Source of the DNA: a bacterium
Lineage (GTDB): Bacteria > T1Sed10-126
Assembly (NCBI GenBank): GCA_003557545.1
Contig: PWOD01000159.1
Location: 1-14,108, forward strand
Direction of reading: 5' to 3'
Length of the DNA: 14,108 bases
Shown: piece by piece, positions 2,536 to 14,108 of the stretch
How the letters are laid out: every line of letters begins with the position of its first letter
Position numbering within the stretch: the first letter of the stretch is position 1
Made by a program: the position numbers and the translations under genes
Notes under the pieces: model-generated
What the model was told of the DNA's origin: nothing
The model's database searches: none
The model's input: the letters and a program-made list of their open reading frames with translations, nothing else

Positions 2536-2640
2536 ATGTCAGGGCCGCTATTGAGAAAAAATGATTTTAGCTGGTGGTTACTTACCCTGGGGGTTTTCTG
2601 TACCCTCTTCCTGCTGTTTTTTTCCGGAGTTATTAGAGCT
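2536..2640 (+). other. Signal peptide of the giant protein
   Basis: The first 35 codons give a short basic segment (R7, K8), then a run of Trp, Leu, Phe and Val over residues 13-33, then R-A before the acidic mature start EEIIDW. This is a Sec signal peptide. Cys22 sits in G-V-F-C, which is not a lipobox, so lipoprotein processing is unlikely. If translation starts at TTG 2551, the peptide is 30 residues. Confidence 0.8.
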
Positions 2641-5600
2641 GAGGAGATTATTGATTGGTCGCTGGAGGCCGACTGGAATCAGGCTGTCGAATCGGAGCAT
2701 GTTGAGATCGATGGAGATAGATTGCTCTGGAGATTGCATGAAACCCTGGAGGTTACAGAGGATAGCTGCTCCGATTGGGATCAGTACCATTCCCTGGAAA
2801 ACATTGCCTGCCAGGATGATCGGCTTTTTCTTGATGAGGATAACGAGGTGGATGAACTGTTTGAAGCCGTGGGGGTTGGCCGAAGCGGTGAGATTAGACA
2901 GTGGGAGGTTCCGGTTACCGGAATTTACCGGATTGTTGGTAAAGGGGCGCAGGGTGGTGGGGATTATGGTGGTAAAGGGGCACGGATAGAGGGAGAGTTT
3001 GAGCTGGAAGCAGGAGAAATTTATGAGATAGTAGTGGGACATAAAGGGTTTGATAAAAACACTCCGGGTGAGTCCCTTGATGATGGTCATGCGACCGGTG
3101 GTGGGGCAAGCTTTATAGCCCAGGTTATGCTTGGTGATCTGCAGCCATTGATTGTGGCGGGAGGTGGCGGTGGTAACGATTCGATTGCCGGAGCGACAAA
3201 CCATCATGGTCAGGCTGGTGAAGCAGGTGGTTCTGCCCAGGCCGGCGGAGCGATTTCTAATACGGGGACCCCGGGAGCCAATGGAGAAGGTGGAATCGGG
3301 GTATTTAACAGCACAGGTGGAGCTGGCTGGTTGAGTGGCAACGATGGTACGGCGGAAGCACTTAAAGACTCTCCTGAGGGTTGTGATGATGCGGCTAGTG
3401 ATGGGGGGTTTGGCGGGGGTGGAAGTGTTGGAGGAACGTCAAACTATCGAACCGCCGGTGGTGGGGGTTATTCCGGAGGGGCCGGTGCGATGGGAAGTGA
3501 GGAGGCCGCTGGCGGTGGTGGCGGTTCCTTTAACAGTGGGGATAATCAAGCCAACGAGAGCGGTTTCAATGAGGGTGACGGGCAGGTCAAAATTGAGCTT
3601 CTCGAGTTAACCCAGGTCGATGTCCTTACCGGTTCAAGGATATACAATCTGCTGTCCCTGGATGGGATTTATGATGTTAGTCGAACGCTTGTCGAGTGGC
3701 AGTCTGAAGAGCCTTTTGGCACCGGAATAGATATTGAGTTCGCCGTCACCAGCGATTCACAATCACCTCCCGAGATAGTCTATGAAGCAACCGGTTCCGG
3801 ACCTACGGGTGACACACATCTCTGGGTGGTGCCGGAGTCCGGCAACTACCGAATTGGGGCCTATGGTGCCCAGGGTGGTCAGGGAGTTAATGGTTCGGGA
3901 GGCCGGGGTGCTCATGTTGCCGGAGATTTTTACCTGGAGGCCGGGGAAGAGATTGTGATTCTGGTTGGCCAACAGGGGGAAGGTGGAGGGGTTGCAAATT
4001 CTGCGGCGGGAGCCGGAGGGGGAGGGTCGTTTGTTGTTCGTAAGGGAGGGACCGGTCTGTCTGATATCTTTGTGATTGCAGGTGGTGGTGGTGGTCATGC
4101 CGGTCAGCATACTCCACATCCGTACCGACATGGTTCTGTTATGCCGGATGGACGGGATTCTGTGGGCGAATATTCTGGGCCGGGAGGAACCGATGGTGAG
4201 GGGGGAGGAGCGCCGGCTGAACCGGGTGGTGGGGCTGGTGGCGGAGGATTTTTCACTGATGGCGAAACAAGTGATGGCAATACCGGTGGCCACGCTTTTC
4301 TCACCGGCGGTGTTGGAGGTACCGGTGATTTTTCAGGCGGGTTTGGTGGAGGTGGTGCGGCTCGAAGTGGGGGTACTTATTCCCGTCATGGTGGTGGTGG
4401 TGGGTTTTCCGGTGGTGGCGGTGGAGTTGGGCTGTCCGATCCTACTTCCGGCGGTGGTGGTGGTTCTTATAATAACGGAGATAATCCATACAGTGAGGCG
4501 GCGGTTAATACCGGCGACGGTCGGGTGGTTATTCAGCTGCTTGATGAATGGTCGCAGGCTGACAACGGTCAGCCGATACCTAATATCGATATTGGGGAGG
4601 ATCTTACCGGGAAATATCTCTGGATTCGTAAGACTTTCTGGAGTGAAGAGCCGCAGAACATTCCCCTGCTAGATAGTTTAAACATAGAGGTTGAGGGGCA
4701 GCTTGATGAGGGCTATTTAATCACTGCACCTAAGGATATGATGACCGGCAAACCGGAACTTTTCGAGCTGGATTATGAGCTGAATGGTCAACAGATAATT
4801 GTTGATCTGATAGGTAGTCCCGGGACGGTTGATGAAGAACGAATTGAGGGGGTCGAACTGGTCGGTCAGATGGGGCAAACTTTACCGTGGGCGGCTGAAC
4901 ACAGCAGTTTTCAGCTGGAGATTTTGCTGCGTAGTCTGGATATGGAAACATCCCCGGTTGTTAACAGTATTGGTCTCTTACGTCCGGCCGAGTTCATACT
5001 GGAAATCAACCATCAAGAAAGTCTTCTCGAGGTGGCTGATGGTGAAACTGCGGAGTTGGTTGGCGTGGTTGAAAATATTAATGGAGTTGACTACAGCCAG
5101 GAGATTGAGTTCAGAGTTGATGGTGTCCTGGTTGATACTGAGCTGGTTACCCTTGGCCCCGGCGAAACATCCCCGCTATTATTCAATTATCCGTCCAGTC
5201 TTGCTGATGATGGTGCTGAATTAACAATCAGTTCAGCTGATGATTCTGATACTGCCCAGCTACTGGTAGCAGATTTTTCTGGAGGCCGGGGGACTGAGGA
5301 AGAACCTTTTTTAATTGCAAACTGGTATCAGCTGGATGAGATTCGGCGAGTTCCCGGAAACCATTATAAGTTAATAGCTGATCTTGATCAGTCAGCTTCC
5401 GGTTATCATGATCTGGCCGGGCCGGGTGATTCCGGCTGGCTGCCGGTCGGGACTGAGAGTCAGCCGTTTGAGGGGATTTTCCTGGGAGGGGGGCATTATC
5501 TGGCAGATCTTAATATCGACCGGCCGGAACAGGATGGCGTGGGGTTGTTCGGCTGGACCGGCCAGGAGTTTATTCTAAGTGAGGTTGGAATCCGTGATCC

Positions 5601-8600
5601 GCAAATAGTTGGGGGTAGTTTTGTCGGTGGTGTGGTGGGTAACCATGCCGGGGGGGTAATTATTAATCTTTACCTGCAGGGAGGATCGATTGCCGGTGAG
5701 GATGAGGTCGGAGGAATGGTTGGATACACGGATGGAACTATCAATCGAGTCTATTTGGCGGCGGAGATTGAATCTTCCGGTGAAGTTGGCGGGCTGGTGG
5801 CTTCCCAGGGTTCGGAAGCGGTAATTGTCGAAAGTTTTTGGGATGAGCAGCTGACGGGACAATCGGGCAGCGCCGGTGGAGATGGAAAAAGTTCGAGAGA
5901 GTTAAAAGAACTTGCAACTTTTGATGCAGCCGGCTGGAGTATAGAGAGAGTATTGAGCGCTGATAATCGGGGATATCCCTATCTCAGCGGTGATGACCCG
6001 ATCTGGGTTTTGCCATATATTGAACTGCAGCTAACGGTCGAGGGAGAGGGGGAGATTCTGGTTGATGGAACATCGTCTACCGGTACGGTCCAGCTGCCCG
6101 CCTGGGAAATAGCAGAGTTGGAGGCTGATCCGGCTCAATACTGGTATTTTGCCGATTGGACCGGTGCAGTTGATAGTTCCGCTATCATGGTTGAGCTGTT
6201 TATGGATCAATCTCGTGAGATGACCGCCCGGTTTGAGCGTGATACTCGGGTATTAACGGTTGATATAGAAGGGCAGGGGGAGGTGCTGGTTGCCGGGGAT
6301 AGCTACCAGCAGCCGGTTGGTCTAACCGCCGGAGAAACTTTTAGTTTGGAGGCAGTTGCTGCTGAGCACTGGCATTTCCGGGAATGGATTGGAGCAGTTA
6401 CGACAGGGGGAACTGAAACTGAAATATTTATGGGAACCGATCAGACAGTTCAGGCAGTTTTTCGCCAGGATACCCATCAGTTAACTGTTGAAGTTGAGGG
6501 TGAGGGGAATGTCCTGGTAGATGCTGATAGTTATCTTGCTCCGATTGAGTTTCTTGGTGGTGAAACAGTTGAGCTGGAAGCGGTGGCCGGTGAATTCTTC
6601 CATTTTGTTGAATGGAGCGGTGATCTGGAGGGAACGGATAATCCCCAGCAGCTGCTGATTGATTCAGATAAACAGGTAACGGCCTGGTTTGAACGGGATA
6701 CCCAGCTGTTAACAGTCGATATAGAAAATGCCGGACAGGTTCTGGTGGAAGGTGAAACCTACCTTGAACCGGTAGTTCTTGAAGCCGGGGAAACAGTCCT
6801 ACTGGAGGCTGTCCCGGCTGATTTCTTCCATTTCAAGCGCTGGGAAGGCGATCTTACAAGCACTGTTAGTCAAACCCCACTGTTTATCGACGATGATAAG
6901 TCGGTTACGGCAGTTTTTCAACAGGACACAGAGATTTTAACTATTCAAACGATCGGTGACGGGGAGGTCCTGGTTAATGGTGATACCTATACTGCCCCGC
7001 TTGTTTTGCCGGCTGGAGAGACTGTGGTTCTGTCAGCGGTTCCGGATAATTTCTTCCATTTTGGCAGCTGGTCCGGTGATCTCAGTGGCAATCAGCCGGT
7101 GGAACAGCTGTTTGTTGATCGGGAGCAGGAGGTAACTGCAGAGTTTGTTCGTGACACTCATATCCTGACGGCCGAGTTCACCGGAGAAGGTGAGCTGCTG
7201 GTGGATGGTGACAGTTACCAGGAGCCAGTTGTGGTAAATGCCGGTGAGACTGTTGAACTGCAGCCGGTCGCCGCCCAGTATTACCATTTTGATAGCTGGG
7301 GTGGAATAATTAGTGGGACTGATGTTCCGGCCGAACTGTTTGTTGTTGGTGATCATACTGTTGAGGTTAATTTTGCGCTTGATACTCATCTGCTGACAGT
7401 TGAGATCGAACAGGCCGGCCAGGTTCTGGTCGACGGGGACAGCTATCTGGATCCGCTTGTGGTAACGGCCGGCTCTCCCGTTGAGTTAGAGGCGGTAGCG
7501 GATCGGTTCTATCATTTTTACCGGTGGAGTGGCGATCTCGATTCAACCGACAGTGCCACCCAGCTGTTTATTGGCGGGGATAAGACAGTGACTGCTGAAT
7601 TCCGCCGGGATACCCATCTGTTAACGGTTAATCTTGAGGGGGACGGGATGGTAACGGTTGAAGGAGAAACCTATATCGAACCGCTGGTGGTTGATGGCGG
7701 TGAAACCTTAGAGTTGTCGGCGTCTCCTGGCCAGTTTTATCATTTTTTAAACTGGGAGGGATCTCTGGTTGGGGGAGATTTTGTTAAACAGCTGTTTGTT
7801 GAAGATGATCTGGAGGTCACGGCTGTTTTTCAGCGTGATACCCATAGTTTAACGATTGATGTGGAAAACCTCGGTCAGGTGCTGGTTGAGGGAGAAACTT
7901 ATGTTGAACCGGTTGTGCTGCCGGCTGGAGAAACAGTTGAACTGCTGCCGGTGGCCGGTCTTTATCATCATTTTTCCGGCTGGACCGGGGATTTGATCGG
8001 TGACCAGTTGCCCGGCCAACTGTTTATTGATGGGGATAAATCGGTGACAGCGCAGTTTACTCTGGATACCCATACAATCAATCTTGATCTGGATGGCGGG
8101 GGGACTGTTTTGATAAATGGTGAGACCTATGTTGAGCCACCGGTATTTGATGCCGGCGAAACGATTGAATTAACCGCTGTTTCCGATCAGTACTGGAGTT
8201 TTGACGAATGGTCAGGCGATCTTTCAGGCACTCAGAAAACCGACCAACTGCTGGTTGACGATGATAAATTTATTACAGCTCATTTCAGACAGGATACGGC
8301 AATTTTAACGGTAACAGTTGAGGGACAGGGTGAGGTGCTGGTTGACGGGACCGTCAGTCTCGGACCGGTTGAACTGACTGCCGGTGAGACAGTAGAACTA
8401 ACTGCCGATCCCGCTCAATACTGGAGTTTTTCAGACTGGTCCGGAGAGTTAACCGGCAGCCAGTTGGTCGGTGAAATATTTATGTCCGGTGACCGGGCAG
8501 TAACCGCTCAGTTTGTCCAGGACACCTATACGTTGACTGTTGAAATAGAGGGGCAGGGGGAGGTTTTTGTAGAGGGGGATAGTTATCTTGCCCCAGTTGT

Positions 8601-11600
8601 TTTGCTGGCTGGAGAAACGGTTCAACTGGAGGTTCAGGAGGTTCAGTTCTGGAATTTTGACCAGTGGACGGGTGATTTGACCGGCCCCCAATATGAACAA
8701 CTGCTGTTTATTGATGAGGATAAAACAGTTACCGCACATTTTCAGCAGCAGACTCGGGATCTGGAGATTATGATTTACGGTGATGGTAAGGTCCTGGCGG
8801 CAGGAGAAACAGTCCCCCGTCCCGGAGCTACGATCGCTGTAAATGCTGGAGATACCCTGGAGATCGAGGCGGTCCCCGGAGAGTTTTATTCTTTCAGACG
8901 CTGGGTTGATGATCTTAGTGGTACAGCAGCGGTTGAACAGCTTTATATTGATGGACATAAAACAGTCAGTGCTGAGTTCAGGCAGGATACTTTCCAGCTG
9001 GAAATTATTATTCAGGGTCAGGGTGAGGCCCTGGTTGATGGTCAATCTTATACGGCGGTAGTAGATGTGCCCGGTGGGGAGACGGTGGAGATAGATGTAG
9101 AACCAGCTGCCGGGTGGTATTTCATTGGCTGGCAGGGAGATTACCTTAGCAGCGCTGCTCCCGATCAGCTGTTAATGGATGACAATAAACAGCTGCAGGC
9201 AGTATTTGGTGAGCTGAAGGAGTTGACGGTTGAGGTTGAAGGAGAAGGTGCAGTTCTTGTCGATGGTGAGACCTATGTTGAGGTGCTGGAGATACCGCAG
9301 TGGGATACTGTCGTTCTGCAGCCGGTTGCTGGAGTTGACTGGTATTTTGAACGTTGGTCGGGAGATATAGATTCGACGGATAGCCAGTTTATTCTGCAGA
9401 TGGATTCGGCTCGGACAGTGACTGCTGAGTTTACAGGACATCGTTATGTTTACTCGGCTGGGGATGACGGGAGGGTACATAAACTGGATACCTTTGGCGA
9501 TAGTGTCTGGATTTTTGATGGTCATCTGGCGGGTGGGGCGGATCCCCAACTGTTGGATGTGGTGGTTGATATTGATGGGAACATCTATTCTTCAGCCGAC
9601 AACTCGGAGATCCAGAGGATTAATCCGGATGGCAGCTCCTGGGGGATGTTCGATGATCTGCAGGCTTCTTCCAGCCGGTTAGCTACTGATTATGATGGAT
9701 ATATTTATGGAACTGATCTCAACGAGGTATTTAAGCTTGAGCAGAATTTTAATCCTGTCTGGCGATATGATATTGGTGCGACTGTCTTACGAGATGTCGC
9801 CGTGGGTGCAGATGGTTACGTCTACAGCAGCAGTAATGCCAACGAGATCCACAAGATAGCTCCGGATGGATCAATGGTCTGGAAATTTACCGGAACACCG
9901 GATCTCCCCCTGAGTATTGCCGTTGATGGCCTGGGTTATGTTTACAGTGGATTTGCTGGAAGCCAAGAGATCTATAAGTTAGATCCAATGGGGAACCTGG
10001 CGGATACTTTTGAGGTGGGTGCACCGGGAGTCAGAGCGCTGGTTTTTGATGCGGCCGGAAATCTTTATAGCGGCAGTGGACATCCCGATGAGTGGGAGAT
10101 CAACAAGTTGAACCGGTTTGGCACTATTGCCTGGACATATACTGAACATGGAGCCGGTGGAGGCGACATTCAGATCGGGTTGGATGTTGATGAAGACGGC
10201 TATATTTACAGCGCTGCCGGGGATGGGGAGGTACATAAGATCGATCCCGATGGGCAGAATGTCTGGAAATATTCAGGCCATGGTGAGCCGGTCAGCGGAG
10301 TGGCCGTCGAGCCGCTACCGGAACCTTATCAACTTGTTATTGAGCCGGTGGGTGACGGAGTCGGTGATGTATTTGTCCAGGGAGACAGCTATTTTATTCC
10401 AGCTTATATTCATCCTGATCAGGAGATATTTGTGGGTGCGCTGGCCGGAGAATTTTCTCATTTTGTAGGCTGGGAGGGTGATTTGGCTGGCAATAATATA
10501 GTTGAGCAGCTGATAATGGATGGCAATAAAAGCTTGAATCCACGGTTTGAGCGGGATACATATACTCTTGAAATAGATATTTTTGGGGCCGGCCAGGTAG
10601 AGGTTGAGGGAACGGTTTATGATCCATCTGAGTCACTTGAGTTTTACGGCGGCGAGACGGTTGAAATCTCGGCCATCCCGGAGAGCGGCTGGTATTTTGC
10701 CGGATGGGAGGGTGATTTTACCAGCAACCAGCTGGACGAGCAGCTGTTTATGGATGGTAATAAACAGCTGCAGGCAGTGTTTGGTGAGCTGAAGGAGTTA
10801 ACGGTTGATATTGTGGGAGATGGTGCGGTGCTGGTTGATGGTGAGACTTATGTTGACCGGCTGGAAATCGGTGAAGGAGAGACGGTTGAGCTGCAGGCCA
10901 TACCGTCGGCTGACTGGTATTTTGACAGCTGGGCTGGGGATATTACCTCGGGAGATAGCCGGATTGTTCTGACGGTTGATGATGATCTTCTGGTGGAAGC
11001 ACGATTTGAGGAACATCGTTATCTTTATTCGGGTGGAGATGATGGTCTGCTCCATAAAATCGACACCCATGGAAACCTGGTCTGGACCTATGATGGACAT
11101 AGTGGCGAGCCGGTTTTATCCGTGGCTGTAGATGTCGGTGGGGATATTTTGACCGCCGGTGACGACGGGGAGATTCATCGAATTTCACCCCAGGGGGAGA
11201 ACATCTGGAGTTTTGATGGTGCGGCCGGCAGCAGTCGAGATCTGAAGGTTGATTATGCCGGGGCCATCTATATCACGGATGGCACCGCCGGTGAAATTCA
11301 TAAGTTGACCTCGAATGGACAGCTTGATTGGACCTATGGAGAGATGGAAGGTCAAGCACAGATGAGTGTAGAGGTGGGGCCGGACGGATATGTTTATGCC
11401 GGGGATAACGAAAATGAAATACATAAGATAGCACCGGATGGATCCAAGGTCTGGAAATTTTCAGGAACACCGCAGCTGACCTATAGCCTGGCTGTGGATG
11501 GACTGGGTTATCTGTACGCTGGATTTAGAAATCATGATGAAATCTATAAGATAGATCCGGCCGGAAATCTTGTCGAAATCTATGGGCTGGGTTCGGAGAA

Positions 11601-14108
11601 TGTTCGGGCTCTGGTTCTCGACGCCGCGGGAAATCTTTATAGTGGTAGTGGTCATCCGAATGACTGGGTGGTTCATAAGCTGGATCGCTTGGGAAATGTT
11701 GTCTGGACTTATACTGACCATGGAGCCGGCGGCCCGCAGACAGCCATGGGGCTGGCGGTCGATGCTGATGGTTATATTTACAGTGGCTCCGGTGATGGCG
11801 AGGTCCATAAGATCGATTCGGCTGGGCAGAACGTCTGGCAATATACCGAACATGGTGAGCCGGTAAATAGCGTTGCTGTTGAACCTCTGCCACAACCTTA
11901 TGAACTGCGTATTGAGCCGGTTGGCGAGGGAGTTGGTGAGATACTGGTTGGTGGTGACACCTTTTTCTATAACGGCTATATCTATCCCGATCAGGAGATC
12001 GAGCTGGAGGCGGTAGCCGGTGAGTTTTCCCACTTTGTTGGTTGGGAGGCTGATCTGGCTGGAGCTGATCCGGTTGCTCAGCTGCTGATGGATGAAGACA
12101 AGCTGATCAACCCCCGATTTGAGCGGGATAGTTTCACGATTCAGCTTGATTTTATTGGCGAGGGTGAGGTGCTGGTTGACGGGGTCAGTTATGATCAACC
12201 GGCAGAGCTGGAGTTTTATGGCGGTGATACCATCCAGTTCGAGGCGGTAGATACGGCTGATTGGTATTTTGTCGAGTGGAGCGGGCTGGCTGTCAGTGGT
12301 GATACGGTGGTTGAGCTGTATATTTCTGAGTCGGGTCTGCTGACGGCCGAGTTTGAGGAGTTTCGTGAACTGGTTGTAGATATAGTCGGAGATGGGGCGG
12401 TAGCTGTTGATGGTGACAGTTCTTCCCAGTTGTTTAAGTTTCGCCAGGGTGATACGGCGGAGCTGATAGCGGTTCCCGGCCCGTCGATGATTTTTCAGGA
12501 GTGGACCGGCGACCTTTCGTCGGACAGTCAGCAAATTGTTGTTGAAATCGAACAGGATAAACAGCTGACCGCCAACTTTGTCGAAGATTGGTTTGTTTAT
12601 AGCGGCGGTGCTGACCGGGAGCTGCATAAGATAGATTCGTTGGGTAATACTCGCTGGATTTATGAAGAACATTCTGATCGAATTCGGGCAGTCTTTGTTG
12701 ATTCCCAGCGCTATGTTTATAGTGGTGGATATGATAATGAACTGCATAAGATTGATCCCCTGGGGAATAATGTCTGGAAATATACTGAGCATAACGGTTC
12801 GGTACTTGATGTTGCCATTGGTGGACCGGGAGGGTTTATCTGCAGCGCTGGTGCGGACGGTGAAATACATCGGATAAATTCAGCCGGGGATCAAGAGTGG
12901 GTATATATGGATCTTCCGTCAGCGGCCCGGGCGGTAGAAATTGATCGTCTGGGCAATTATTGTCATGCTGCCGGGGGTAATGAGATTCACAAGCTTGGCT
13001 CCGGGATGGATGCAGAGTGGATCTATGATGGTTTTGCCGGGCAGGTTGAAGCGCTGGCAATTAATGGTGCCGGGTACCTGTTTGCCGGGGATGCGACCGG
13101 TGAAATTCATAAGATTGATCCCGAGGGCAACAAGGTCTGGAGTTACAGTGAACATACCGATGAGGTCAGGGGGCTGGCGATTGATCTGACGGGAGATCTG
13201 TACAGTGTTTCCTGGGATGGTGAGTTACATAGAATCGATCAGCAGGGGAACAGGGTCTGGAGTTATGATGACCATACTGATCAGTTGAATGCGGTGGCAG
13301 TAGGGAGCGATGGAGTCATTTATACCGGATCCAGTGATAATCAGGTCCACAAGGTTAGTCCCGGTGGAGATAATCTCTGGCGATACGAGGAACACAGCGA
13401 TGATCTGTGGGCGCTGGCGGTTGATTTTGGTCCGCAACCCTATGAGCTGGATGTTTGGGTGGAGGGGGTGGGAGATGTGCTGGTTGATGGTGACAGCTAC
13501 TTTCAGACCAACCTGATTCGTCCGGATGAGACTGTGGAGCTGCAGGCGGTTCCCGGTCTCTATCAGCATTTTGTTGAATGGGATGGTGATCTGCAGGGAA
13601 GCGAGTTAACCAAACAACTGCTGATTGACAGCCATCGTTCTGTTACGGCAAGATTTGCGGTTGACACACATCCACTGGAGTTGAACCTGGAGGGGTCGGG
13701 CGAGGTTGTTGTGGATGGGCTGAGTTATTCTGAGGATACGACAATAATCCTTGATGCCGGGGAAGCGGTGGTAATTGAGGCGGTGGGAGATCAGTCCTGG
13801 GATTTTACCGAATGGAGCGGTGATCTGTCGGGAACTGTTCCGGTTAATCAGCTGTTCATCGATGGTCCCGCCCAGGTTGGCGCCCTATTTGAGCAGGATA
13901 CCCGGTTGCTCACAGTTGATGTGGAGGGGCTCGGTGTGGTGCTGGTCAACGGCGAGACGGCAGCTGCTGAGGTTATCTTACCGGCCGGGGATACTGCATT
14001 GATCGAAGCAATTCCGGAGAATTCCTGGTATTTTCAGGGCTGGACCGGGGATTACCTGGGGGCTGATACGCAGCTTCAGCTGCTGATGGATGAGGATAAA
14101 GAGCTGAC
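2536..14108 (+). CDS. Giant secreted modular repeat protein with glycine-rich, GLUG, InlB-B-like and beta-propeller domains (3' end outside window)
   Basis: One frame runs open for 3857 codons from the ATG at 2536 and is unfinished at the right edge. Residues 13-33 form a hydrophobic signal-peptide core after R7-K8, with likely cleavage after A35 (VIRA|EE), so export is by Sec. Domains by residue: glycine-rich 121-358 and 427-671; CARDB-like about 818-914; GLUG 915-1143; fifteen InlB-B-like repeats 1166-2302; propellers 2303-2595, 2828-3121 and 3352-3632; triplets of the same repeats at 2599-2827, 3123-3351 and 3637 onward. The protein is very acidic with few Lys and Cys. No Shine-Dalgarno sequence precedes the ATG. 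TTG at 2551 has AGGG (2541-2544) at good spacing and gives a compact signal peptide starting M-R-K-N, so it may be the true start. Likely role: extracellular or surface stalk or adhesin. Ligand and anchor are unknown. Confidence 0.9.
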   Translation, partial: MSGPLLRKNDFSWWLLTLGVFCTLFLLFFSGVIRAEEIIDWSLEADWNQAVESEHVEIDGDRLLWRLHETLEVTEDSCSDWDQYHSLENIACQDDRLFLDEDNEVDELFEAVGVGRSGEIRQWEVPVTGIYRIVGKGAQGGGDYGGKGARIEGEFELEAGEIYEIVVGHKGFDKNTPGESLDDGHATGGGASFIAQVMLGDLQPLIVAGGGGGNDSIAGATNHHGQAGEAGGSAQAGGAISNTGTPGANGEGGIGVFNSTGGAGWLSGNDGTAEALKDSPEGCDDAASDGGFGGGGSVGGTSNYRTAGGGGYSGGAGAMGSEEAAGGGGGSFNSGDNQANESGFNEGDGQVKIELLELTQVDVLTGSRIYNLLSLDGIYDVSRTLVEWQSEEPFGTGIDIEFAVTSDSQSPPEIVYEATGSGPTGDTHLWVVPESGNYRIGAYGAQGGQGVNGSGGRGAHVAGDFYLEAGEEIVILVGQQGEGGGVANSAAGAGGGGSFVVRKGGTGLSDIFVIAGGGGGHAGQHTPHPYRHGSVMPDGRDSVGEYSGPGGTDGEGGGAPAEPGGGAGGGGFFTDGETSDGNTGGHAFLTGGVGGTGDFSGGFGGGGAARSGGTYSRHGGGGGFSGGGGGVGLSDPTSGGGGGSYNNGDNPYSEAAVNTGDGRVVIQLLDEWSQADNGQPIPNIDIGEDLTGKYLWIRKTFWSEEPQNIPLLDSLNIEVEGQLDEGYLITAPKDMMTGKPELFELDYELNGQQIIVDLIGSPGTVDEERIEGVELVGQMGQTLPWAAEHSSFQLEILLRSLDMETSPVVNSIGLLRPAEFILEINHQESLLEVADGETAELVGVVENINGVDYSQEIEFRVDGVLVDTELVTLGPGETSPLLFNYPSSLADDGAELTISSADDSDTAQLLVADFSGGRGTEEEPFLIANWYQLDEIRRVPGNHYKLIADLDQSASGYHDLAGPGDSGWLPVGTESQPFEGIFLGGGHYLADLNIDRPEQDGVGLFGWTGQEFILSEVGIRDPQIVGGSFVGGVVGNHAGGVIINLYLQGGSIAGEDEVGGMVGYTDGTINRVYLAAEIESSGEVGGLVASQGSEAVIVESFWDEQLTGQSGSAGGDGKSSRELKELATFDAAGWSIERVLSADNRGYPYLSGDDPIWVLPYIELQLTVEGEGEILVDGTSSTGTVQLPAWEIAELEADPAQYWYFADWTGAVDSSAIMVELFMDQSREMTARFERDTRVLTVDIEGQGEVLVAGDSYQQPVGLTAGETFSLEAVAAEHWHFREWIGAVTTGGTETEIFMGTDQTVQAVFRQDTHQLTVEVEGEGNVLVDADSYLAPIEFLGGETVELEAVAGEFFHFVEWSGDLEGTDNPQQLLIDSDKQVTAWFERDTQLLTVDIENAGQVLVEGETYLEPVVLEAGETVLLEAVPADFFHFKRWEGDLTSTVSQTPLFIDDDKSVTAVFQQDTEILTIQTIGDGEVLVNGDTYTAPLVLPAGETVVLSAVPDNFFHFGSWSGDLSGNQPVEQLFVDREQEVTAEFVRDTHILTAEFTGEGELLVDGDSYQEPVVVNAGETVELQPVAAQYYHFDSWGGIISGTDVPAELFVVGDHTVEVNFALDTHLLTVEIEQAGQVLVDGDSYLDPLVVTAGSPVELEAVADRFYHFYRWSGDLDSTDSATQLFIGGDKTVTAEFRRDTHLLTVNLEGDGMVTVEGETYIEPLVVDGGETLELSASPGQFYHFLNWEGSLVGGDFVKQLFVEDDLEVTAVFQRDTHSLTIDVENLGQVLVEGETYVEPVVLPAGETVELLPVAGLYHHFSGWTGDLIGDQLPGQLFIDGDKSVTAQFTLDTHTINLDLDGGGTVLINGETYVEPPVFDAGETIELTAVSDQYWSFDEWSGDLSGTQKTDQLLVDDDKFITAHFRQDTAILTVTVEGQGEVLVDGTVSLGPVELTAGETVELTADPAQYWSFSDWSGELTGSQLVGEIFMSGDRAVTAQFVQDTYTLTVEIEGQGEVFVEGDSYLAPVVLLAGETVQLEVQEVQFWNFDQWTGDLTGPQYEQLLFIDEDKTVTAHFQQQTRDLEIMIYGDGKVLAAGETVPRPGATIAVNAGDTLEIEAVPGEFYSFRRWVDDLSGTAAVEQLYIDGHKTVSAEFRQDTFQLEIIIQGQGEALVDGQSYTAVVDVPGGETVEIDVEPAAGWYFIGWQGDYLSSAAPDQLLMDDNKQLQAVFGELKELTVEVEGEGAVLVDGETYVEVLEIPQWDTVVLQPVAGVDWYFERWSGDIDSTDSQFILQMDSARTVTAEFTGHRYVYSAGDDGRVHKLDTFGDSVWIFDGHLAGGADPQLLDVVVDIDGNIYSSADNSEIQRINPDGSSWGMFDDLQASSSRLATDYDGYIYGTDLNEVFKLEQNFNPVWRYDIGATVLRDVAVGADGYVYSSSNANEIHKIAPDGSMVWKFTGTPDLPLSIAVDGLGYVYSGFAGSQEIYKLDPMGNLADTFEVGAPGVRALVFDAAGNLYSGSGHPDEWEINKLNRFGTIAWTYTEHGAGGGDIQIGLDVDEDGYIYSAAGDGEVHKIDPDGQNVWKYSGHGEPVSGVAVEPLPEPYQLVIEPVGDGVGDVFVQGDSYFIPAYIHPDQEIFVGALAGEFSHFVGWEGDLAGNNIVEQLIMDGNKSLNPRFERDTYTLEIDIFGAGQVEVEGTVYDPSESLEFYGGETVEISAIPESGWYFAGWEGDFTSNQLDEQLFMDGNKQLQAVFGELKELTVDIVGDGAVLVDGETYVDRLEIGEGETVELQAIPSADWYFDSWAGDITSGDSRIVLTVDDDLLVEARFEEHRYLYSGGDDGLLHKIDTHGNLVWTYDGHSGEPVLSVAVDVGGDILTAGDDGEIHRISPQGENIWSFDGAAGSSRDLKVDYAGAIYITDGTAGEIHKLTSNGQLDWTYGEMEGQAQMSVEVGPDGYVYAGDNENEIHKIAPDGSKVWKFSGTPQLTYSLAVDGLGYLYAGFRNHDEIYKIDPAGNLVEIYGLGSENVRALVLDAAGNLYSGSGHPNDWVVHKLDRLGNVVWTYTDHGAGGPQTAMGLAVDADGYIYSGSGDGEVHKIDSAGQNVWQYTEHGEPVNSVAVEPLPQPYELRIEPVGEGVGEILVGGDTFFYNGYIYPDQEIELEAVAGEFSHFVGWEADLAGADPVAQLLMDEDKLINPRFERDSFTIQLDFIGEGEVLVDGVSYDQPAELEFYGGDTIQFEAVDTADWYFVEWSGLAVSGDTVVELYISESGLLTAEFEEFRELVVDIVGDGAVAVDGDSSSQLFKFRQGDTAELIAVPGPSMIFQEWTGDLSSDSQQIVVEIEQDKQLTANFVEDWFVYSGGADRELHKIDSLGNTRWIYEEHSDRIRAVFVDSQRYVYSGGYDNELHKIDPLGNNVWKYTEHNGSVLDVAIGGPGGFICSAGADGEIHRINSAGDQEWVYMDLPSAARAVEIDRLGNYCHAAGGNEIHKLGSGMDAEWIYDGFAGQVEALAINGAGYLFAGDATGEIHKIDPEGNKVWSYSEHTDEVRGLAIDLTGDLYSVSWDGELHRIDQQGNRVWSYDDHTDQLNAVAVGSDGVIYTGSSDNQVHKVSPGGDNLWRYEEHSDDLWALAVDFGPQPYELDVWVEGVGDVLVDGDSYFQTNLIRPDETVELQAVPGLYQHFVEWDGDLQGSELTKQLLIDSHRSVTARFAVDTHPLELNLEGSGEVVVDGLSYSEDTTIILDAGEAVVIEAVGDQSWDFTEWSGDLSGTVPVNQLFIDGPAQVGALFEQDTRLLTVDVEGLGVVLVNGETAAAEVILPAGDTALIEAIPENSWYFQGWTGDYLGADTQLQLLMDEDKEL
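2896..3609 (+). other. Glycine-rich domain 1 (ALK/LTK-type, PF12810-like)
   Basis: Residues 121-358 open with a strand segment ending TGIYRIVGKGAQGG, then ELEAGEIYEIVVGHKG, then several poly-Gly runs (AGGGGGND, GGFGGGGSVGG, TAGGGGYSGG), and end with GGGGGSFNSGDN and GDGQVKIELL. This order matches the glycine-rich domain best known from ALK/LTK receptors and also found in bacterial secreted proteins, where Gly helices pack into a compact beta fold. Function here is unknown; a binding or structural role is inferred. Confidence 0.75.
3814..4548 (+). other. Glycine-rich domain 2 (ALK/LTK-type, PF12810-like)
   Basis: Residues 427-671 repeat the layout of domain 1: SGNYRIGAYGAQGGQG, then YLEAGEEIVILVGQQGEGG, the core IAGGGGGHAGQ, more Gly runs (GGFGGGGAARSGG, RHGGGGGFSGGGGG), and the closing GGGGGSYNNGDN and GDGRVVIQLL. 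It is an evident internal duplicate of domain 1. A divergent copy of a short segment (IYDVSRTLVEWQSEEP and LTGKYLWIRKTFWSEEP) follows each glycine-rich domain, so the duplication may have included that linker. Confidence 0.78.
4987..5274 (+). other. CARDB-like Ig-fold domain
   Basis: Residues 818-914 have a beta-sandwich pattern: EFILEINHQESLLEVADGE, then ELVGVVENING, a strand with FRVDGVLVDTELVTLGPGE, then ADDGAELTISSADDSDTAQLLV. This resembles CARDB/APHP-type adhesion modules that often precede repeat regions in bacterial surface proteins. The match is by pattern only. Confidence 0.45.
5278..5964 (+). other. GLUG-type beta-helix region
   Basis: Residues 915-1143 start with GGRGTEEEPFLIANWYQLDE and HYKLIADLDQS, followed by GWLPVGTESQPFEGIFLGGG and GVGLFGWTG. 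Then come GLUG-like units: SFVGGVVGNHAGGVI, DEVGGMVGYTDGTINRVYLA and GEVGGLVASQ. The region closes with ESFWDEQLTGQSGSAGGDGK and a TFDAAGWS segment. This is the canonical order of GLUG-motif surface proteins and predicts a short right-handed parallel beta-helix. These regions are common in anaerobe adhesins and S-layer-associated proteins. Confidence 0.82.
6031..9441 (+). repeat. Tandem array of 15 InlB-B-like beta-repeats (PF18998-type), about 228 bp each
   Basis: Unit starts are 6031, 6250, 6481, 6706, 6934, 7162, 7390, 7618, 7846, 8074, 8302, 8530, 8758, 8995 and 9220. The nine units from 6706 to 8757 are each exactly 228 bp (76 residues). A typical unit reads LTVEIEGQGEVLVDGDSY, then xPVVLxAGETVELEAVP, then F-x-x-W-x-G-D-L, then QLFIDGDKTVTAxFxxDTH. 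The fold expected is a small beta-grasp-like or Ig-like module forming a stiff rod. Units are clearly diverged, so the array is old, but length is under strict constraint. Function is inferred as a stalk or spacer holding the domains away from the cell. Confidence 0.88.
9442..10320 (+). repeat. Beta-propeller 1, seven PQQ/WD-like blades
   Basis: Residues 2303-2595 contain seven blades of about 40 residues with the pattern YSGxxDGEVHKIDPDGxxVW, then (Y/F)xxH, then a V-x-x-(V/L)-(A/V)-V-D-x-x-G-Y strand. Blade openings are RYVYSAGDD, IYSSADNSE, IYGTDLNE, VYSSSNANE, VYSGFAGSQE, LYSGSGHPDE and IYSAAGDGE. Seven repeats suit a closed seven-bladed disc of the PQQ/WD40-like superfamily. No PQQ-binding or enzymatic residues are evident. 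A ligand-binding or structural role is likely. Confidence 0.83.
10330..11016 (+). repeat. Triplet of InlB-B-like repeats between propellers 1 and 2
   Basis: Three units start at 10330, 10561 and 10795. The first carries EFSHFVGWEGDLAG, the second GWYFAGWEGDFTSN and the third DWYFDSWAGDITSG. The last two correspond to the two units just before propeller 1 (8995 and 9220), showing they belong to the duplicated cassette. Bases 9184-9233 and 10759-10808 differ at only two of 50 positions. Confidence 0.85.
11017..11898 (+). repeat. Beta-propeller 2, seven blades, duplicate of propeller 1
   Basis: Residues 2828-3121 hold seven blades opening RYLYSGGDD, ILTAGDDGE, IYITDGTAGE, VYAGDNENE, LYAGFRNHDE, LYSGSGHPND and IYSGSGDGE. 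They match propeller 1 blade by blade: blade 4 shares EIHKIAPDGS and VWKFSGTP or VWKFTGTP, blade 5 has Tyr instead of His in EIYK, and blade 6 shares LYSGSGHP. The start is 1575 bp after that of propeller 1, so the whole propeller was copied as a block. Confidence 0.83.
11902..12588 (+). repeat. Triplet of InlB-B-like repeats between propellers 2 and 3
   Basis: Units start at 11902, 12133 and 12367. The first (EFSHFVGWEADLAG) is nearly the same as the first unit after propeller 1. The third is the most diverged, with MIFQEWTGDLSS in place of the usual aromatic-rich core. Triplet length is 687 bp, the same as the previous triplet. Confidence 0.83.
12589..13431 (+). repeat. Beta-propeller 3, seven more uniform blades
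   Basis: Residues 3352-3632 hold seven blades opening WFVYSGGAD, VYSGGYDNE, FICSAGADGE, YCHAAGGNE, LFAGDATGE, LYSVSWDGE and IYTGSSDNQ. All seven keep His in the (L/I/V)-H-(K/R) motif, unlike propellers 1 and 2. The blades lack the blade-specific insertions (GSGHPxxW, GAGG) of the first two propellers and are close to 40 residues each. They look like a tandemly amplified single blade rather than a direct copy of propeller 2. Blades 3 and 4 carry Cys residues, rare in this protein. Confidence 0.82.
13444..14108 (+). repeat. InlB-B-like repeats after propeller 3, running off the window
   Basis: Units start at 13444, 13672 and 13906; the third is cut by the right edge. The first has YQHFVEWDGDLQG, the second WDFTEWSGDLSG and the third SWYFQGWTGDYLG with LLMDEDKEL. 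By analogy with the two earlier triplets, another propeller should follow soon. The coding frame is still open at 14108. Confidence 0.83.

Follow-up and report, generated by a model that had tools for sequence, protein, structure and literature searches.

A reading frame that runs without interruption to the edge of a contig raises two questions: what kind of protein it encodes, and by which route such a protein would reach the outside of the cell. The stretch of DNA analysed here (the window; 14,108 nucleotides) is the whole of contig C235, one of 239 contigs in a 2.15-Mb assembly that is 91.9% complete; because the contig is complete, the sequence stops on the right where the assembly broke off, and not at a biological end. 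The giant ORF (2536..14108, + strand), identified by ORF reading, begins with an ATG at 2536, has an alternative in-frame GTG start at 2527, 9 bases upstream, and stays open up to 14106, which gives 3857 codons with zero stops. The claim of the first-pass annotation that a single open frame of at least 3857 residues starts at 2536 is thereby borne out. The C-terminus was not recovered, as the other contigs fetched (part of the 239) have zero exact overlap with either end of the window. The protein is acidic and low in lysine, with a pI of 4.05. Three features precede the giant ORF: a penicillin-binding protein gene of which the 3' part is present (2-799), fliS (985-1536) and a small ORF (1499-1897). 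The position of fliS just upstream of the giant gene is an observation in its own right; since fliS is present, the host is probably flagellated.

All features of the giant protein described below are on the + strand. A predicted Sec signal peptide occupies residues 1-35 (2536..2640); read by eye, it looks clear, with a basic n-region, a hydrophobic core and a cleavage site near VIRA/EE. It is followed by two glycine-rich domains, the first of which (ALK/LTK-GRD-like, 2854..3759) is detected by PF12810 and by the window's own profile, and the second (3775..4611) by Pfam and own profile. On the whole protein, ALK_LTK_GRD (PF12810) scores 57.1 bits against a cut-off of 24.5, in two stretches. 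A short stretch of the second domain also matches the human LTK receptor (7nx0); kinship with ALK/LTK receptors was dismissed, as the match reflects the common glycine-rich fold only. Next come a conserved domain (residues 671-814; 4546..4977), which is recognised by own profile and is common to 11 ORFs or fragments of the genome, and the segment that the first-pass annotation named CARDB-like and Ig-type (4987..5274). The latter name did not stand, as Pfam gives no CARDB match on the window at E 0.01. The GLUG-type module (5254..6015) is defined by own profile and was not confirmed by the curated Pfam Glug model on the window; that profile finds about 200 related segments in 40 ORFs of the genome, and some of the paralog segments that match the window's module do pass Pfam Glug. 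NCBIfam CIS12 also matches the window (27 bits vs 860), but this was dismissed as a generic propeller match.

The remainder of the frame is built from two alternating elements, InlB-B-like units and β-propellers. A stalk block of 15 units of ~76 residues each (6016..9438; PF18998 and own profile) precedes propeller 1 (9442..10320), after which three units (10324..11013), propeller 2 (11020..11892), three units (11896..12585), propeller 3 (12592..13434) and three final units, the last truncated at the contig end (13438..14106), follow in turn; the three short blocks were delimited by own profile. Seven-bladed propeller 1 rests on alignment, a structure model and own profile, seven-bladed propeller 2 on alignment, a structure model and structure comparison, and propeller 3 on alignment to propellers 1 and 2. 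By own profile the units number 24, as in the first-pass annotation, in blocks of 15+3+3+3, the last one cut, and the first 12 keep a 76-residue register. Flg_new_2 (PF18998) reaches 376.6 bits on the giant protein against a cut-off of 23.6. Pfam upholds the two glycine-rich domains and the InlB-B-like units of the earlier domain list and gives several propeller models. The propeller starts are spaced 526 and 524 residues apart; the regular spacing proposed in the first-pass annotation is thus found in the last third of the frame, where three InlB units separate the propellers, and does not extend to the first 15 units, which carry none. A five-unit stalk model has a mean pLDDT of 43 and a pTM of 0.24, too low to show whether successive units keep a defined orientation, as the long rigid fibre proposed in the first-pass annotation would require.

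Structure prediction, which had been named as the check for closed propellers, was carried out with AlphaFold2 on propeller 1, the three following InlB units and propeller 2, using an alignment of the modules in the window itself. In the resulting model, pLDDT is mostly 73-93 across propellers 1 and 2 and falls below 50 in the linker InlB units. Each of the two propellers has 28 strands, i.e., 7 blades x 4. Compared with the seven-bladed design v31WRAP-T (7bid), modelled propeller 2 gives a Z of 41.4 and an rmsd of 1.5 A over 280 residues (VIA-align 2), and a TM of 0.92 on the target (Foldseek). The model thus supports closed rings of seven four-stranded blades in propellers 1 and 2, and the 21 blades counted from the sequence hold for the two modelled propellers together with the aligned third.

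Since the assembly comes from short reads, with many contigs broken in genes of this kind, it might be argued that assembly produced the giant frame, as a chimera or as an artefact of the repeats. One family member elsewhere in the genome even has stops within a similar gene: on C214 (L066), the frame of a giant InlB/GLUG gene is broken by TAG and TAA, and this gene is either a pseudogene or affected by sequencing error. In the window, however, 3857 codons are read without a stop, the InlB-like units are only about 40-60% identical to one another, and related intact ORFs are present on other contigs. In particular, propeller modules 1 and 2 (residues 2303-2828 vs 2829-3352) share 53% amino-acid identity and are 66/71/44% identical at codon positions 1/2/3. 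Third positions that have diverged far more than first and second ones imply that the giant frame has long been under protein-level selection. As read from the codons, the two modules are old, selected coding sequence and not a recent or artefactual duplication, and an artefact is the least credible of the explanations considered here. The giant protein is real, and known parts are combined in it in a new way.

The protein is not singular. Searches of its own genome (G000) with parts of the window return about 244 and 199 related segments, and domain mapping of the fetched contigs defines a family of at least 66 ORFs or fragments that covers 277 kb, or 12.9% of the 2.15-Mb assembly, and contains 533 InlB units; a gene split over several contigs may have been counted more than once, and short-read breaks in repeats may make the total an underestimate. 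Seven members have at least 3,000 residues. The glycine-rich domain is found in eleven family ORFs, as is the domain of residues 671-814, and GLUG-type modules are numerous. The architectures are highly varied, with glycine-rich and GLUG modules differing from protein to protein. The giant protein is one of a set of mosaic giants that are made of the same parts and are probably particular to this lineage; the earlier observation stands, and what changes is its setting, a large paralogous family. Direct tandems of three or four giant family genes on C104 and C133 (L071, L116, L068) suggest growth by tandem duplication. The sister genome G001, of the same family, has 8 InlB matches vs at least 150 in G000, so that the InlB expansion would be either lineage-specific or lost in G001.

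Propellers, by contrast with these shared parts, were found nowhere else in the window's genome, which points to a propeller role specific to this family member. At E 1e-20, propeller relatives occur in 20 other genomes among the 386 searched, the best of them scoring 124 bits vs 477-533 for self. At the 27 loci read, with short flanks (about 3.5 kb), no InlB or GLUG unit is in frame with the propeller (0/27), and three of the 27 have a T9SS-like CTD. These relatives look like ordinary secreted or surface propellers of the PQQ type. A contig scan gave one match, which is weak (Candidatus Zipacnadia, 27% identity). At three loci in other genomes (L227, L228, L238), PQQ-type propeller proteins have a T9SS-like sorting domain at their end.

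The anchor of the protein lies beyond the contig edge and can be approached through its paralogs. Of the family ORFs, 40 have an intact stop; a conserved C-terminal domain ends 34 of them and is absent from the remaining 6. Among paralogs of the N-terminal part of the giant protein, all five with an intact end (C81, C173, C73, C80, C164) carry this domain in one or the other of two subtypes. Subtype 1 has the consensus IYTITGxLVYxxxxxxxxYxWDxRNxSGxxVSSGYYLYRVxxxxTGxxxTGKLAIVR, and subtype 2 ends in ASGTYIYLIKGxGxSSSxTLTIIR. Subtype 2 (C80) passes TIGR04183, the T9SS type A sorting domain, with 30.4 bits vs a cut-off of 23; subtype 1 (C81) stays below that cut-off at 18.3, and its matches are to the PorZ and PorU models, at their CTD ends. 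The question of the anchor is thus answered indirectly: rather than SLH, LPXTG or an autotransporter barrel, the C-terminus of the paralogs appears to hold a T9SS type-A-like sorting domain, and the giant protein would have its own copy past the edge of the contig. Some predators and contact-dependent systems also have giant surface proteins with long repeat stalks, and, with the C-terminus missing here, the giant protein could be imagined as a weapon for predation or contact, in which the stalk delivers an effector at the unseen end. As 34 of the 40 intact paralogs have a sorting domain at the end and no enzyme or toxin, and as no effector, enzyme or toxin domain is seen in the window (Pfam, NCBIfam), such a function is very improbable.

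The genome also encodes candidate components of the corresponding secretion machinery. Six PorV/PorQ-family genes score over the cut-off (167.3 bits vs 90). SprA/Sov is represented by fragments at contig ends, on C23 (74.5 bits) and C86 (24.7 bits), to be read against a cut-off of 200 for the full-length protein; neither fragment has a sequence match to any solved SprA. No PorU peptidase C25 domain was found in G000 (~92% complete), where the PorU model matched only at its CTD end; control genomes likewise gave no match. Together, the sorting domains of the paralogs, the PorV-family genes and the SprA-like fragments lead us to infer that the giant protein is T9SS-type cargo. A separate set of genes on C86 (L128, 364-6733), identified by eye as CpaB-, CpaC- and TadE-like and resembling a Flp/tight-adherence pilus, adjoins the C-terminal SprA-like fragment.

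We therefore propose, with a probability of about 0.7, that the giant ORF encodes the N-terminal part of an adhesin or filament of giant size, which a type IX-like secretion system would carry to the cell surface. The signal peptide would direct Sec export, the C-terminal Ig-like, type-A-like sorting domain would be recognised by an SprA-like outer-membrane translocon, and a PorV-family shuttle would collect the exported protein. Outside the cell, the glycine-rich, GLUG and propeller domains would serve as interaction surfaces, with the InlB units as spacers. Most likely, then, the propellers and glycine-rich heads are carried outward, where they may offer repeated binding surfaces; adhesion is suggested by the company of domains, and passage through a T9SS by the paralogs and machinery genes. 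The exported protein and the closed propellers of the first-pass interpretation are supported. Alternatively, the family might be a structural, S-layer-like coat whose mass covers the cell, with the propellers as structural spacers and no specific ligand. The sheer amount of the family (12.9% of the genome) and its acidic, low-lysine member with a pI of 4.05 would suit a coat, as would 1l0q, an archaeal surface-layer protein of solved structure in which propellers stand in tandem and to which propeller 2 compares with a Z of 36.5. However, varied paralog architectures, variable glycine-rich and GLUG modules and the restriction of propellers to one member argue for specific contacts and against a uniform lattice, so that a coat seems unlikely.

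A further observation concerns how cargo is matched to its shuttle. In the two genomes of the phylum, 17 of 22 PorV-family genes lie directly downstream, on the same strand, of a gene with a sorting-domain end; 16 pairs were found by script, and that on C45 of G001, whose overlap is above the script limit, was taken from coordinates. The pairs are on C73, C231, C119, C136, C77, C53 and C198 in G000 and on C118 (two), C108, C102, C20, C23, C6 (two), C79 and C45 in G001. Most giant cargo genes of G000 have no PorV-family neighbour, and these would use shuttles in common. Outside the phylum, a CTD gene likewise often precedes the top-scoring PorV genes, an arrangement that the porU-porV order of canonical loci probably explains. 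Among lower-scoring PorV paralogs of ten other genomes, 15 of 20 follow a CTD gene; these 20 were hand-picked from strong hits and are no survey. As judged from gene order, the pairing suggests that type A cargo has dedicated shuttles. Most work on T9SS concerns Bacteroidota, in which a single PorV is said to serve every type A CTD and dedicated downstream shuttles belong to type B cargo only (PMC12618676). In the open-licence literature, no account was found in which type A cargo is paired with PorV paralogs. We tentatively suggest, at somewhat less than even odds, that type-A-like CTD cargo, including giant fibres, here and in many bacterial families often has its own PorV-family shuttle directly downstream; PorV proteins would then be diversified cargo-specific shuttles or anchors and not one general shuttle, with the propeller giant belonging to the most extreme expansion of such cargo. 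With such pairs, it can be tested directly whether shuttles are specific for type A signals. The larger point reaches beyond one protein, to a genome-wide family and its probable T9SS-like export in a bacterium from a phylum of which only two genomes are compared here, and to the cargo-PorV pairing.

Several known systems share parts of this arrangement. The present family resembles T9SS type A cargo (TIGR04183) of Porphyromonas and Flavobacterium in the predicted signal peptide, in the Ig-like type-A-like CTD of the paralogs and in the presence of PorV-family genes and candidate SprA-like fragments. However, several PorV paralogs, many paired with cargo, here replace one common PorV, no PorU peptidase domain was found, the cargo is thousands of residues long, and the giant protein's own C-terminus is beyond the contig. 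The giant adhesin SprB of Flavobacterium johnsoniae, with its dedicated downstream shuttle SprF, is likewise repetitive, and in several family members, too, a shuttle gene is directly downstream; that system combines a type B CTD with PorP/SprF, whereas here a type-A-like CTD goes with a PorV-family shuttle. As in the archaeal surface-layer protein 1l0q, which has tandem YVTN propellers and PKD domains, seven-bladed propellers alternate with small β domains in a surface protein, although InlB-B units replace PKD, the host is bacterial and the export route is another. The stalk units are of the same family as the Listeria InlB B-repeat (Flg_new_2, PF18998), but here there are 24 of them, without the leucine-rich internalin domain. 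Finally, Giant1-5 of Apilactobacillus kunkeei are very large extracellular proteins that take up 6% of a 1.5 Mb genome (PMC12863079), and in both bacteria such proteins fill several percent of a small genome. Unlike those Gram-positive proteins with β-solenoid heads, the present family comprises at least 66 ORFs or fragments with T9SS-like sorting domains, and about one eighth of the assembly (12.9%) is given to giant mosaic surface proteins, above the 6% of A. kunkeei (PMC12863079).
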